Below, one piece after another: positions 23,358 through 53,729 of a DNA stretch of 64,000 nucleotides. A program made the position numbers and the translations under genes. Source of the stretch: Rhodococcus sp. W8901 (GTDB taxonomy: Bacteria > Actinomycetota > Actinomycetes > Mycobacteriales > Mycobacteriaceae); the NCBI RefSeq assembly GCF_013348805.1, contig NZ_CP054690.1:3410001-3474000 (forward strand), given 5' to 3'. Positions within the stretch are counted from its first letter, which is position 1. Each line of letters starts with the position of its first letter. The notes beneath the pieces are model-generated. The model searched no databases. It was not told where the DNA came from and worked only from the letters and a program-made list of their open reading frames with translations.

Positions 23358-24704
23358 TCACCCGAGGCTGTCGAGCGGATCGGCCACATCCAAGTCCCCC
23401 GTGGTGTCCTCGAAGGTACGCGACTGCCCCGGTCCGCTGCTACGGGTCTCGAACCGAACCGTCACCACGCCGTGTCCAGCGCCCTGCACCCAGCCGTGTC
23501 CGTACTCGGGGTGCGACACGTCCAATCCGGGATGCCACCGGGGCCGCGACTCGGAAGCCGCACGGTCCGACGAAACGTCCTCGAGTCCACCACTTTCCGA
23601 CACATCCTCACCCTGGTCCAGCTCGGGGAACAGCGACCCCTGGACCACCGCGGACAACCCACCGAAGCCCACGCCCACCAGGCGGATCGGACCCAGTTCG
23701 AGCGGGTCGATCGCCTGGCGCTGCGCCGTCGCGGTGAGCGTCTGCAGATCGGTCGTCGCGTACGGCAGCGTGATCGATCGGGTCACGATGCTCATATCCG
23801 ACTTACGGAGTTTCAGGACGACGGTGCGGGCCGCGCGGCCGTCCCGCGCCAACCGCCTGTGCGCAGCGGCGGCGCTCGACTCGACGGCCCGCCGCAGCTC
23901 GGACAGTGTCACGATGTCCTGCGCGAAAGTCGTTTCGGCACTCACCTGTTTGGCGTCGGCGCGTTCCGCGACCGGACGGTCGTCGATGCCCCGGGCCAGC
24001 CGCTGCAGACCCGGTCCGATCGTCGTCCCGAGAATGGATGCCACCTCGGCCTCCGGCAGCGCCGCGAGGGCGCCGACGGTCTCGATCCCGAGCCGCTTGA
24101 GCTTCTCCTCCGCGACGGGACCGATACCCCACAGCTTGCGCACCGGCAGCGCCTCCAGCAGGGCCTGCTGGACGTCCGGGGACACCACCGTGATCCCGTC
24201 CGGCTTGGCCAGACCGGACGCGATCTTCGCGACCTGCTTGCCCGCGCCGGCGCCGATCGAGGCGACCAGCCCCGTCTCGGCGAGAACCAACGCCCGCAGC
24301 TCTTCGCAGTAGCGCTCCACCTCGGCCTTGCCGGCACCGGCGAGCTCGGCCGGTTCCCCGAACGCCTCGTCGAGCGAAAGCTGTTCCAGCACAGGCATCC
24401 GCACCCGCAGCGCCTCGAACACCTCCCGGCTCACGTGCCCGTACAGCCCACCGCGGGGCGGCAGCACGACGGCCGACGCCCCCACCAACCGGCGCGCCTG
24501 GTGCATCGGCATGGCCGAGCGCGCGCCGAAGACCCTCGCCTCGTAGCTCGCCCCCGCAACCACTCCCCGACCGCCGAGGCCGCCCACGAGCACGGGACGA
24601 CCCCGCAACGTAGGACGGGTCAGCTGCTCGACGGATGCGAAGAACGCGTCCATGTCGAGATGCAGGACCCACCGGCGGCTGCGTGTGGGGTCGGCGGAGT
24701 CCAT
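23358..24704 (-). CDS. dinB: DNA polymerase IV (Y family)
   Basis: A 448-residue translesion polymerase. [13 protein letters not shown] (about 14-26) and [10 protein letters not shown] hold the catalytic acidic residues. The steric region, thumb and little finger follow, with the clamp-binding peptide QGSLFPEL near residue 357. The last 80 residues ([21 protein letters not shown] and beyond) form the extension typical of mycobacterial DinB1/DinX. The order ileS-dinB-lspA matches M. tuberculosis. TATTTT (24711-24716) lies 6 nt before the ATG, so the mRNA may be leaderless. No SOS box was seen upstream. Confidence 0.93.
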
Positions 24705-50447: not shown

Positions 50448-50604
50448 GGTTCCTCCGGCTCCTGCTCGATGCTGTGGGGCTTGCACGTGGTTGGGGGTCC
50501 GAAGAGGTGGTTCGGCGGGCTGTCGTCGACTGATGCGCTGCAACGAAACTCGCGAACGTCACTCTCCGGGAGAGCGAATGCCTCGAGGTCCCTGTCCGAT
50601 CGAG

Positions 50605-50674
50605 GAACCTGGCGCTGGGGAAGTGCGTCAGGGTCCCGGCGGTGAACCTGGCGCTGGGGAAGTGCGTCAGGGTC
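50605..50674. repeat. 31-bp perfect direct repeat between mraZ and rsmH
   Basis: Copies at 50605-50635 and 50644-50674 are identical over 31 bp with a 39-bp period. Each contains GGCGCTGGGGAAGTGCGTCA. They lie in the untranslated gap of the mraZ-rsmH transcript. Both repeats could be translated in one minus-strand frame (THFPSARF twice), but no gene is supported there. Confidence 0.85.
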
Positions 50675-50720
50675 ACACTCGGGCAGAGGCCTCGCGGCAC
50701 TCGCCTGTGGCGTCGGTGGG

Positions 50721-51683: not shown

Positions 51684-52124
51684 CTACTCCTGTTCGAATC
51701 TCCTGCGGAAGCGATCCTCCATCCGGGACGAGAATCCGCCGCCGGACTTCTTGCCTCCATGAGGCTTACGCGGATGCGATCCTCGCGCACCCGGCCCTTC
51801 ACCGGACGGGTCGTCCCCGTCGGGTACCGCTGCCAGATGCCCCTTCCCTCCACCGAACAGGAAGAGCACACCGGCACCGAACATAACGACGAACCCGATC
51901 ACACTGACGATCGGGAATCCGCCCAACCACAACACATCCAGAGCCACGCCCGCGATGAGCAGGACGAGACCCAACGCAAAGAGGGCCACCGCCTGCAATC
52001 GACGTTTTCCAGCGGGGGCACGCATTCGCCCGCCCCTCACCGTGGACGCGAACTTGGGATCCTCGGCGTAGAGAGCGCTCTCGATCTGATCGAGCATGCG
52101 CTGCTCGTGCTCGGAGAGTGGCAC
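51684..52124 (-). CDS. DUF3040 membrane protein
   Basis: A 146-residue protein with the family start PLSEHEQRMLDQIESALYAEDPKFAS (residues 2-27). Two transmembrane helices follow (about 44-66 and 69-92), then a Gly/Lys/Arg-rich C-terminal tail ending FRRRFEQE. DUF3040 is an actinobacterial family of unknown function, and a member lies at the same place beside mraZ in mycobacteria. The GTG at 52124 has GGGAGG 4 nt upstream, which overrides an upstream in-frame start. Confidence 0.87.
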   Translation of the reverse strand: MPLSEHEQRMLDQIESALYAEDPKFASTVRGGRMRAPAGKRRLQAVALFALGLVLLIAGVALDVLWLGGFPIVSVIGFVVMFGAGVLFLFGGGKGHLAAVPDGDDPSGEGPGARGSHPRKPHGGKKSGGGFSSRMEDRFRRRFEQE

Positions 52125-52328
52125 GGTACCTCCCCCGGCACTAAGAGTTGGCACCTCGCCGCGGTGCGGAGAGGTGGGTAACGGACTAGCGGTTACCTGA
52201 ATTCAATAATACGAGGAGAGTCCTCCTCTGACCACCTACTCCGTCGACGAGTTCCCACCGAATCGGCGACAATCCGGTATGCCCCACCAGAAGGGCCCGT
52301 GAACGTGTCCGGAATCACCGCATCCACG

Positions 52329-52946
52329 CTACGCCGAGAGCCCGGAAACAGCGCCCCGATTCGTCGCCCCGAGGCGATCCTCGACCGCAGTGAGGAACCT
52401 CCCCACCTCGAAATAGAACGCATCCGCATCCGCATCCGTCACGGTTCGCGTCACACCGGCTTCGATCGAGGCCCGGAGCGCGGAATGCTGGGCGAAGTAG
52501 TCGGCCCACTCCACGAAATCCGGTGCCGCCCGCGCCATGAGGACCCAAGCGCTCCGGGACCGAGGCCGCCTCGCCCGACCGGAGTTCGCCGCCCCTTCCA
52601 CCCCGGCGAGGACCGCAGCAGCACCACGGAGTGCCCCGAGGTACGCACAACGGAATCGTTCCGCAGCCTGGACCGCACCCGCCGCCTCCGACAGCAGACC
52701 GTCCGCGCGACGCAACAACGCGACCGCAGACATCGGAGCCGACACCGGCCCCGCCGGCCCGACCGGTGAACCCGACACGGCAGGACGCCCGGACGATCCA
52801 CAACCGGTCGCCGCGATCCTCGACCGCCCGGACATCGACCGCCGCTTCGGCACCGCCTCGCGCTCGACCACCTCTTCGGCATCCGCAGCTCCGACAGCAC
52901 CGACAGCACCGACACCCCGCGCAACTTCAGGCACGACCTTCGACAT
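52329..52946 (-). CDS. SAV_6107-like HEPN domain protein
   Basis: A 205-residue protein with a low-complexity, basic and Gly/Pro/Ser-rich first third (1-70). A helical domain follows (about 73-195: LLRRADGLLSEAAGAVQAAERFRCAYLGALRGAAAVL, RSRSAWVLMARAAPDFVEWADYFAQ). It resembles the SAV_6107 HEPN family of actinobacteria. HEPN proteins include RNases and toxins, but a canonical RxxxxH motif is not evident, so an RNase role is uncertain. ATG 52946 is preceded by GGGAGG at 11 nt. A perfect SOS box and a 19-bp hairpin lie upstream. Confidence 0.75.
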   Translation of the reverse strand: MSKVVPEVARGVGAVGAVGAADAEEVVEREAVPKRRSMSGRSRIAATGCGSSGRPAVSGSPVGPAGPVSAPMSAVALLRRADGLLSEAAGAVQAAERFRCAYLGALRGAAAVLAGVEGAANSGRARRPRSRSAWVLMARAAPDFVEWADYFAQHSALRASIEAGVTRTVTDADADAFYFEVGRFLTAVEDRLGATNRGAVSGLSA

Positions 52947-52984
52947 GACTTCGAGCACCTCCCAACGCTCCGAAGTTCGGGACC

Positions 52985-53029
52985 GCCGATCCGGTGATGT
53001 TCGCTTCCCTCGAACATCACCGGATCGGC
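52985..53029. repeat. 19-bp perfect inverted repeat in the HEPN leader
   Basis: GCCGATCCGGTGATGTTCG (52985-53003) pairs perfectly with 53011-53029 around the 7-nt loop CTTCCCT. It lies between the proposed HEPN promoter and its ribosome-binding site. With no T-run after it and divergent genes on both sides, it is not an ordinary terminator. Confidence 0.8.
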
Positions 53030-53033
53030 CATA

Positions 53034-53049
53034 TCGAACATGCGTTCGA
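53034..53049. promoter_or_regulatory. LexA (SOS) box between the HEPN and GNAT genes
   Basis: TCGAACATGCGTTCGA is a perfect match to the actinobacterial LexA consensus TCGAAC-N4-GTTCGA. On the minus strand it lies in the 17-bp spacer between TTGAAT (53053-53058) and GATATG (53030-53035), so LexA would block the HEPN gene promoter. On the plus strand it overlaps the -35 area of TATAAC (53059-53064), the likely -10 of the GNAT gene. Confidence 0.82.
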
Positions 53050-53108
53050 CCTATTCAATATAACTGGCCCCACCGACATGTCGTCAAGAGAGAAGGGTGA
53101 GCCCGCGC

Positions 53109-53729
53109 ATGGATGCGAGCACCGGCGAGAGCCCCGACACGAATCCGGAGTCCGCTCCGGTCGTCGTGGACCTGTCGGTATCCGACATGCGTGCCCGGCT
53201 TCCCGAGGCGCTGTCGATCTATGTGGCGGCCATGGGATACCCCCGCGGAACCGAGTACCACCGCGCACCCATGTGGACCGAGCACATGCAGCGAGCCGGA
53301 TGGCGCGCGGTCGGCGCGGTACAGGCCGATCCCGAACTCCCCGACCGCCCGGCACCGTTGGTCGCGATCGCCTACGGCTATCGCGGCGCCCCCGATCAGT
53401 GGTGGCAGCAGCAGGTGCGGCACGGGATGCAGGCGACCGGGTGGAGCCGGGAGCAGATCTCGTACGTTCTCGGTAGCTACTTCGAGCTGACCGAACTGCA
53501 CGTCCATCCGGACGCGCAGGGACACCGCCTGGGCGAGCGACTGCTCCGACGCCTGCTCGCCGACCGCCCGGAGCGTGGCGTACTGCTCTCCACCCCGGAG
53601 GTGGACGACGAGGACAACCGGGCCTGGCGCCTGTACCGGCGCACCGGGTTCCGCGACGTCGTCCGCCACTTCACCTTCGCGGGCGATCGCCGACCGTTCG
53701 CTGTTCTCGGACGGGGGTTGCCGCTGTGA
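53109..53729 (+). CDS. GNAT-family N-acetyltransferase
   Basis: A 206-residue protein of the acetyl-CoA-dependent GNAT superfamily. The acetyl-CoA site is in LTELHVHPDAQGHRLGERLLRRLL (about 135-158), followed by a YRRTGFRDV motif. It corresponds in position to Rv2170 of M. tuberculosis, beside lppM. The ATG at 53109 lies 11 nt after GAAGGG; a GTG at 53097 is equally possible. The stop overlaps the crtO start (GTGA), so an apparently SOS-linked promoter may also drive the carotenoid genes. The acetyl acceptor is unknown. Confidence 0.82.
   Translation: MDASTGESPDTNPESAPVVVDLSVSDMRARLPEALSIYVAAMGYPRGTEYHRAPMWTEHMQRAGWRAVGAVQADPELPDRPAPLVAIAYGYRGAPDQWWQQQVRHGMQATGWSREQISYVLGSYFELTELHVHPDAQGHRLGERLLRRLLADRPERGVLLSTPEVDDEDNRAWRLYRRTGFRDVVRHFTFAGDRRPFAVLGRGLPL

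Follow-up and report, generated by a model that had tools for sequence, protein, structure and literature searches.

We analysed a 64,000-nt stretch of the Rhodococcus sp. W8901 genome (contig NZ_CP054690.1, positions 3,410,001 to 3,474,000; hereafter the window) that carries a gene of the HEPN_SAV_6107 family, and find on comparative grounds that control of this gene by DNA damage is close to certain. The gene probably encodes a DNA-damage-inducible, small helical HEPN-fold protein that assists error-prone translesion DNA synthesis as an accessory or adaptor protein, a role that is the best-supported function we can assign and whose likelihood we place somewhat above even. Two sets of evidence point this way. 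Comparison within the family shows a putative PafBC-type promoter followed by a LexA operator over the presumed transcription start, together with a conserved, structured mRNA leader, while gene order shows that in many other actinobacterial loci a LexA box precedes the predicted HEPN gene, which shares its strand with a DnaE2-type polymerase, DinB or ImuA'-ImuB-DnaE2. The principal features are as follows.

52329..52958, minus strand: HEPN_SAV_6107 gene (PF18726, 1.2e-29)
52985..53029, minus strand: hairpin in the HEPN mRNA leader, 19-bp stem, loop AGGGAAG at 53010-53004 (folding and covariation)
53034-53049, unstranded: LexA (SOS) box TCGAACATGCGTTCGA (consensus match and conservation in relatives)
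53057..53079, minus strand: PafBC (RecA-independent) promoter motif ATGTCGGTG-N8-TATATT for the HEPN gene, one mismatch (consensus as given in PMC5656591)

A sequence-only reading of this DNA had picked out the LexA box as perfect, and it is indeed the sole match without mismatch in the window, TCGAACATGCGTTCGA being one of five perfect boxes in the 5.71-Mb genome. Since the window abounds in near matches (14 at two or fewer mismatches vs 4.4 expected), we assessed the box through its conservation. The family sample consisted of 30 search loci, 80 regions and the window which, after one locus (L084) without a tblastn match was dropped, gave 110 HEPN loci; PF18726 was present in 186 of 201 genomes sampled from the family. 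Within 700 bp upstream of the HEPN gene the best box was perfect in 73 loci, had one mismatch in 18, two in 12, and three or more in 7. In downstream stretches of equal length (n=107), no box was perfect, two had one mismatch and 14 had two, so that the two-mismatch class alone says little. It is this conservation (73/110 vs 0/107), and not the count within the window, that rules out a chance origin of the box. Across 447,748 bases of family loci, all 73 perfect boxes sit upstream of HEPN, which is also the outcome of the check that the earlier reading had proposed, namely the presence of the same box ahead of HEPN homologues in relatives. The HEPN gene thus has what marks members of the actinobacterial LexA/SOS regulon, a consensus operator at its promoter that is kept in relatives.

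The LexA box is preceded by a second, putative damage-responsive element. On the minus strand the order is ATGTCGGTG-gggccagt-TATATT, then 7 nt, then the LexA box, and the first part matches with one mismatch tTGTCRgtg-8 nt-TannnT, described in PMC5656591 as the motif of LexA-independent damage genes and as resembling recA P1. With at most one mismatch, TTGTCRGTG-N8-TANNNT occurs upstream of HEPN in 76 of 110 loci (23 perfect) and in none of 108 controls; 71 of the 76 motifs stand at one of four fixed distances from the box. The box had been placed between the -35 and -10 of the HEPN gene, which did not hold up: the promoter motif (53079-53057) ends ahead of the box, and the box would therefore overlie the HEPN transcription start. 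The LexA and PafBC inputs appear to be exchangeable, because one group of genomes (L018-L028) keeps a perfect or nearly perfect PafBC motif while most of its boxes have drifted to TCGAATNNNNGTTCGG, and another (such as L079-L082) keeps a perfect box and has lost the motif. The genome carries pafBC genes, as two adjacent WYL genes at 2,780,469 and 2,781,458; the frame directly upstream of the first is a Pup ligase by Pfam (382 bits), and reaches 506 bits against the NCBIfam PafA cut-off of 551 on a piece clipped by the locus end. As a separate observation, all six loci of genus g49 (L238, L241, L247, L249, L252, L257) carry, about 140 bp ahead of HEPN, TTGTCAGTG with a PafBC-type motif that has one mismatch, but lack a good LexA box (2-4 mismatches).

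Further support for damage control comes from Corynebacterium glutamicum, which carries PF18726. In this species PMC5055667 places cg2381 in the LexA regulon, calls it conserved hypothetical and gives it an M value of 3.86 after ciprofloxacin, equal to that of recA. The gene numbering (cg2377, which carries the mraW motif, followed on the minus strand by cg2378 and cg2380) puts cg2381 where HEPN is expected, and it is from this order, as opposed to the cg2381 sequence, that we infer the two genes to correspond. Published work already covers LexA control of one presumed family member. Among 15 genomes of a Corynebacterium-like genus (g3), the best box had one or two mismatches in 13 and three in two, a count that has no matched control; the PafBC motif (best 3-5 mismatches) and a GGGAAG leader were absent from all 15. 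By titles and term counts, none of the literature matches listed linked the HEPN_SAV_6107 family with translesion synthesis, and the dual promoter, the leader RNA and the gene-order link to translesion synthesis appear to be new within the literature searched.

The link to translesion synthesis emerges outside the window's own family. PF18726 was found in 86 of 118 genomes sampled from the class, and a perfect box lay within 450 bp upstream of HEPN in 12 of 30 loci from other families. In an outgroup of 40 larger loci from such families, two of the 35 perfect boxes precede imuA' and the other 33 lie upstream of HEPN, no more than about 1.1 kb from the middle of its frame. Within the stretch examined, 30 of the 40 loci have a same-strand gene matching DnaE2, ImuB or DinB of the Rhodococcus genome, and four have ImuA', ImuB and DnaE2 all beside HEPN. 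The arrangements include HEPN-ImuA'-ImuB-DnaE2 (L293, L294), ImuA'-ImuB-DnaE2-HEPN-DUF3040 (L274, L282) and HEPN-(methyltransferase)-DinB-DUF3040 (L275, L283). In 18 of the 40 loci (L267-L305) a DUF6504 gene lies within 1.2 kb upstream of HEPN, mostly followed by a C-family polymerase and DinB, and a perfect LexA box precedes HEPN in 16 of these 18, in most cases lying ahead of DUF6504. Model-based naming covered only two DnaE-kind polymerases: the L282 enzyme passes the error-prone DnaE model (1503.9 bits vs 939), and the L273 enzyme falls below both the error-prone and the replicative cut-offs (668 and 665 bits). Polymerases of the L273 kind may be the DnaE2B described in PMC12926913, and DUF6504 is possibly its standalone ImuB C-terminal domain (ImuB-C); the word HEPN does not occur in the main text of that article. 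Since many other families show the order HEPN-(polymerase)-dinB-DUF3040, the position of HEPN beside the division cluster looks ancestral. In the window's family, HEPN and DUF3040 have no polymerase or dinB between them, and this would account for HEPN's present place next to that cluster; its site beside mraZ would be a remnant of the longer order and not a sign of division control.

The HEPN leader presumably contains a functional RNA element. The segment 52946-53048 folds with a z-score of -6.1, and GGGAAG is present in the leader of 76 of the 103 loci having a box with at most two mismatches, although in two of them (L097, L098) it lies, by eye, outside such a hairpin. For covariation, 39 of the 76 hairpins were picked for diversity and seven were dropped, three of which (L076, L077, L125; loop GGGGAAG) were misaligned. 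In the 32 aligned hairpins, 89.6% of cells pair vs 72.4% in shuffles, both sides change in 17 of 19 stem pairs (9.8 in shuffles), and double changes number 118 (34.6 in shuffles), an excess that is expected in part because the rows were picked for the hairpin. None of 500 shuffles attained any of five covariation measures, and slid alignments fall to 29-45% pairing. Among the non-Watson-Crick pairs of the 48 in-register hairpins, read on the HEPN strand, G-U outnumbers A-C by 43 to 2 (100 to 28 in a cruder count over all 76 hairpins that includes shifted stems), which argues that the hairpin acts as RNA of the HEPN strand; a DNA operator and a leader of the divergent GNAT acetyltransferase gene were rejected on the same count. 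A covariance model built from these rows gave one strong match in each of 19 of 40 genomes, with coordinates always at the HEPN leader, besides three weak second matches (E 6.5e-4 to 1.0e-3) and no match in four g29 or three Corynebacterium-like genomes; because several matched genomes had supplied rows, the search shows only that little else in these genomes scores. It missed G057, G008, G067 and G125 despite their GGGAAG hairpin leaders, even though G067 had supplied one of the rows (L106). No Rfam model, mraW RNA (RF01746) included, matched the hairpin at up to E 1. We regard it as a newly recognised candidate for a cis-regulatory RNA, belonging to a gene of the DNA-damage response.

The sequence around the start favours ATG at 52946 (GGGAGG 11 nt upstream) as the HEPN start codon, with GTG at 52958 possible. 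The protein passes the PF18726 gathering score and adopts a predicted HEPN fold: HEPN structures rank top for the AlphaFold model (predicted local distance difference test score 84), with no Foldseek match at E 0.001, and a sequence search of the PDB gave nothing useful. A ribonuclease-type role has little support, as the protein has no R-x(4-6)-H. Some such string occurs in 47 of 110 relatives, and R-x5-H at one column pair in 28 of 110, the conserved Arg being uninvolved; no His is among the invariant columns of A3, and the family is recorded in Anantharaman 2013 as lacking the ribonuclease motif. The window protein had no match in PADLOC or PHROGs, viral contigs gave no relative, and the Pfam-tested conserved neighbours include no adjacent MNT (nucleotidyltransferase) gene, the partner expected of a HEPN-MNT pair.

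Several observations weigh against a role in translesion synthesis or against uniform control of the family. Neighbourhood does not equal interaction, and the proposed association rests on gene order, for loci that are not mutually independent; moreover, 10 of the 40 outgroup loci have no translesion gene found (some are on short contigs) and seven lack a perfect box upstream of HEPN. In the window, HEPN adjoins no translesion gene, and its family's conserved neighbours are GNAT and DUF3040. The five g4 loci, the two g8 loci and two g9 loci lack a good box, and 27 of the 103 boxed loci lack GGGAAG in the leader. Finally, HEPN is missing from 14 of 14 genomes of one genus (g29), which may be Mycobacterium; mycobacteria keep the mutasome.

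The alternatives involve the neighbours of HEPN, among which the Pfam-tested GNAT, DUF3040, crtO-like and mraZ genes are kept in 102-110 of 110 family loci and DUF3040 lies beside HEPN in 108.

53097..53729, plus strand: GNAT acetyltransferase gene, divergent neighbour, probably outside the SOS unit (Pfam; boxless in 14 HEPN-less genomes)
51684..52154, minus strand: DUF3040 / SCO2097-family gene, downstream of HEPN (PF11239, 2.6e-28; NF058603, 141.7 bits)
50566..50708, minus strand: mraW RNA (RF01746, 53.2 bits), loop ACUUCCCC

The sequence-only reading had seen HEPN and GNAT as a divergent pair, which is real, and had put both under DNA-damage control, of which the HEPN half stands, through box conservation and the cg2381 literature. 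That LexA governs the two jointly, as an SOS acetylation module, is the least probable of the alternatives. In its favour, all 110 family loci have GNAT divergently oriented to HEPN, and in the window 47 bp separate the end of the box from the GNAT start; with such constant pairing, adjacency by itself cannot name the target of the box. The deciding evidence comes from g29, where GNAT lies beside DUF3040 in all 14 HEPN-less genomes (L126-L139): within 700 bp upstream of GNAT this interval holds no good LexA box, the best having 2-4 mismatches, nor a PafBC motif, the best match having 3-5, and GGGAAG appears in one genome of the 14. We therefore conclude that the box serves HEPN, not GNAT or the crtO-like gene, and set GNAT aside as an SOS target since the box vanishes together with HEPN. 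An opposite-strand GNAT does occur near HEPN in eight of 40 outgroup loci, in two of them (L288, L290) about as close as in the window, but in the other six it is 1.6-2.6 kb away, centre to centre, vs 0.8 kb in the window. Rv2170 is presumably the counterpart of the window GNAT. The terms SOS, LexA, DNA damage and mitomycin are absent from the Rv2170 paper (PMC5428333). As for pigment, the overlap of GNAT with the next gene is correct (4 nt, 53726-53729), yet the CrtO cut-off is 1000 bits and that gene reaches 276.7, a distant likeness only, and none of the boxes can be assigned to it; the suggestion that pigment genes follow SOS induction has no support.

Another possibility, that HEPN is an SOS-induced effector that slows translation or division after damage, is improbable. 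It would fit the strong damage control of the gene, the family arrangement in which HEPN is directly upstream of DUF3040 (whose SCO2097 family NCBIfam names "morphological protein") and then mraZ, the lowering of mraZ by ciprofloxacin in C. glutamicum reported in PMC5055667, and the R-x5-H pairing of 28 relatives. This pairing, however, bypasses the conserved Arg, and the lack of the motif in the window protein and in the published account of the family (Anantharaman 2013), the absence of an MNT gene and of a PADLOC match, the association of HEPN with polymerase genes in many other families and the apparently ancestral position beside the division cluster leave the toxin or division effector of the earlier reading with little support. 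It is slightly less probable that HEPN is mainly an RNA-binding stress regulator that binds its own leader hairpin and shares no more than its timing with the polymerases. The covarying hairpin with its invariant GGGAAG, whose strong model matches, in 19 of 40 genomes, all fall at HEPN, is in keeping with such a role; against it, HEPN is present and box-controlled in the 27 loci whose leader lacks GGGAAG, and the gene order with translesion genes would go unexplained. Altogether, there is little or nothing to support an effector or toxin role, or SOS control of GNAT or of pigment genes.

The mraW RNA invites a further comparison, made after both loops had been seen: GGGAAG in the HEPN leader loop is complementary to the mraW loop ACUUCCCC, making the two candidates for pairing. 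Only 0.11% of window 7-mers contain a 6-nt complement to the HEPN loop. Three observations count against a kissing interaction. A strict hairpin rule recovered the mraW loop in 10 of 30 loci, all ACTTCCCC followed by A or G, and three of these are g29. The mraW RNA was found in 49 of 50 genomes, including four g29 genomes without HEPN; the one genome missed (G028) has a weak mraW match below cut-off (26.7 bits) and keeps CUUCCCC, and its HEPN loop is changed. We consider the pairing a long shot. Separately, the mraW RNA match in the window has a 40-nt insertion in the loop region, where, judging by the translated frame, the loop hairpin may occur twice, and a Y-family polymerase gene (IMS domain) lies at window positions 24216-24659 on the minus strand, 28 kb from the HEPN gene.

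How might HEPN act in translesion synthesis? In healthy cells LexA would block the HEPN promoter; after damage PafBC would activate it and LexA cleavage would free it. The protein, which in the window has no HEPN ribonuclease motif, might then bind a mutasome partner or the mutasome's nucleic acid, and the leader hairpin could be the site where HEPN itself or another factor tunes mRNA stability or translation. It is tempting, if doubtful, to go further and see HEPN_SAV_6107 as a missing subunit or gatekeeper that is widespread among actinobacterial mutasomes (ImuA'-ImuB-DnaE2 and the DUF6504-DnaE2B-like kind), with the leader hairpin as an RNA sensor read by HEPN itself; in its boldest form, the GGGAAG loop would pair with the CUUCCC mraW loop and so link DNA damage with the division operon. 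In actinobacteria, ImuA', ImuB and DnaE2 are credited with damage-induced mutagenesis. A further conserved gene that shares their operator and, in some lineages, their neighbourhood would offer a direct lead to how these polymerases are loaded or limited, and the interplay of two damage pathways can be tested on a single short fragment, the compound PafBC-LexA promoter.

Elsewhere in the genome, LexA boxes accompany lexA (two one-mismatch boxes), dnaE2 (perfect), imuA' (one mismatch) and recA (a box and a PafBC motif). At 1,317,752 (L312:2253), a perfect box separates a DUF222/HNH endonuclease gene from a divergently oriented SUKH-domain gene that includes an Xre-like stretch; the two could be an effector and its immunity partner under SOS control. 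The perfect boxes at 1,372,667 and 1,906,505 (L313, L314) are closely upstream of a 178-aa protein with helix-turn-helix matches or a 262-aa protein without a Pfam match.

Set against known systems, the HEPN promoter shares tTGTCRgtg-8 nt-TannnT with the mycobacterial recA P1 / PafBC promoters as defined in PMC5656591, and differs in the position of the box, which is downstream of the motif at HEPN and upstream of it at recA of the same genome. In the data of PMC5055667, cg2381, the presumed counterpart of the HEPN gene, belongs to the LexA regulon and responds to a gyrase inhibitor; Corynebacterium-like genomes, however, have imperfect boxes and neither the PafBC motif nor the GGGAAG leader seen here. 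The HEPN fold is common to HEPN-MNT toxin-antitoxin systems, yet the window protein and its conserved neighbours lack R-x(4-6)-H and an MNT gene, respectively. The leader hairpin resembles mraW RNA in being a long hairpin with a conserved loop in a nearby leader, and departs from it in its different, complementary loop, its gene and its lack of an Rfam match. Closest in gene order are the ImuA'-ImuB-DnaE2 mutasome and the DnaE2B-[ImuB-C] systems outlined in PMC12926913: in other families HEPN is co-directional with their genes and has the LexA box in common with them, and in the window's family it forms a unit separate from them.
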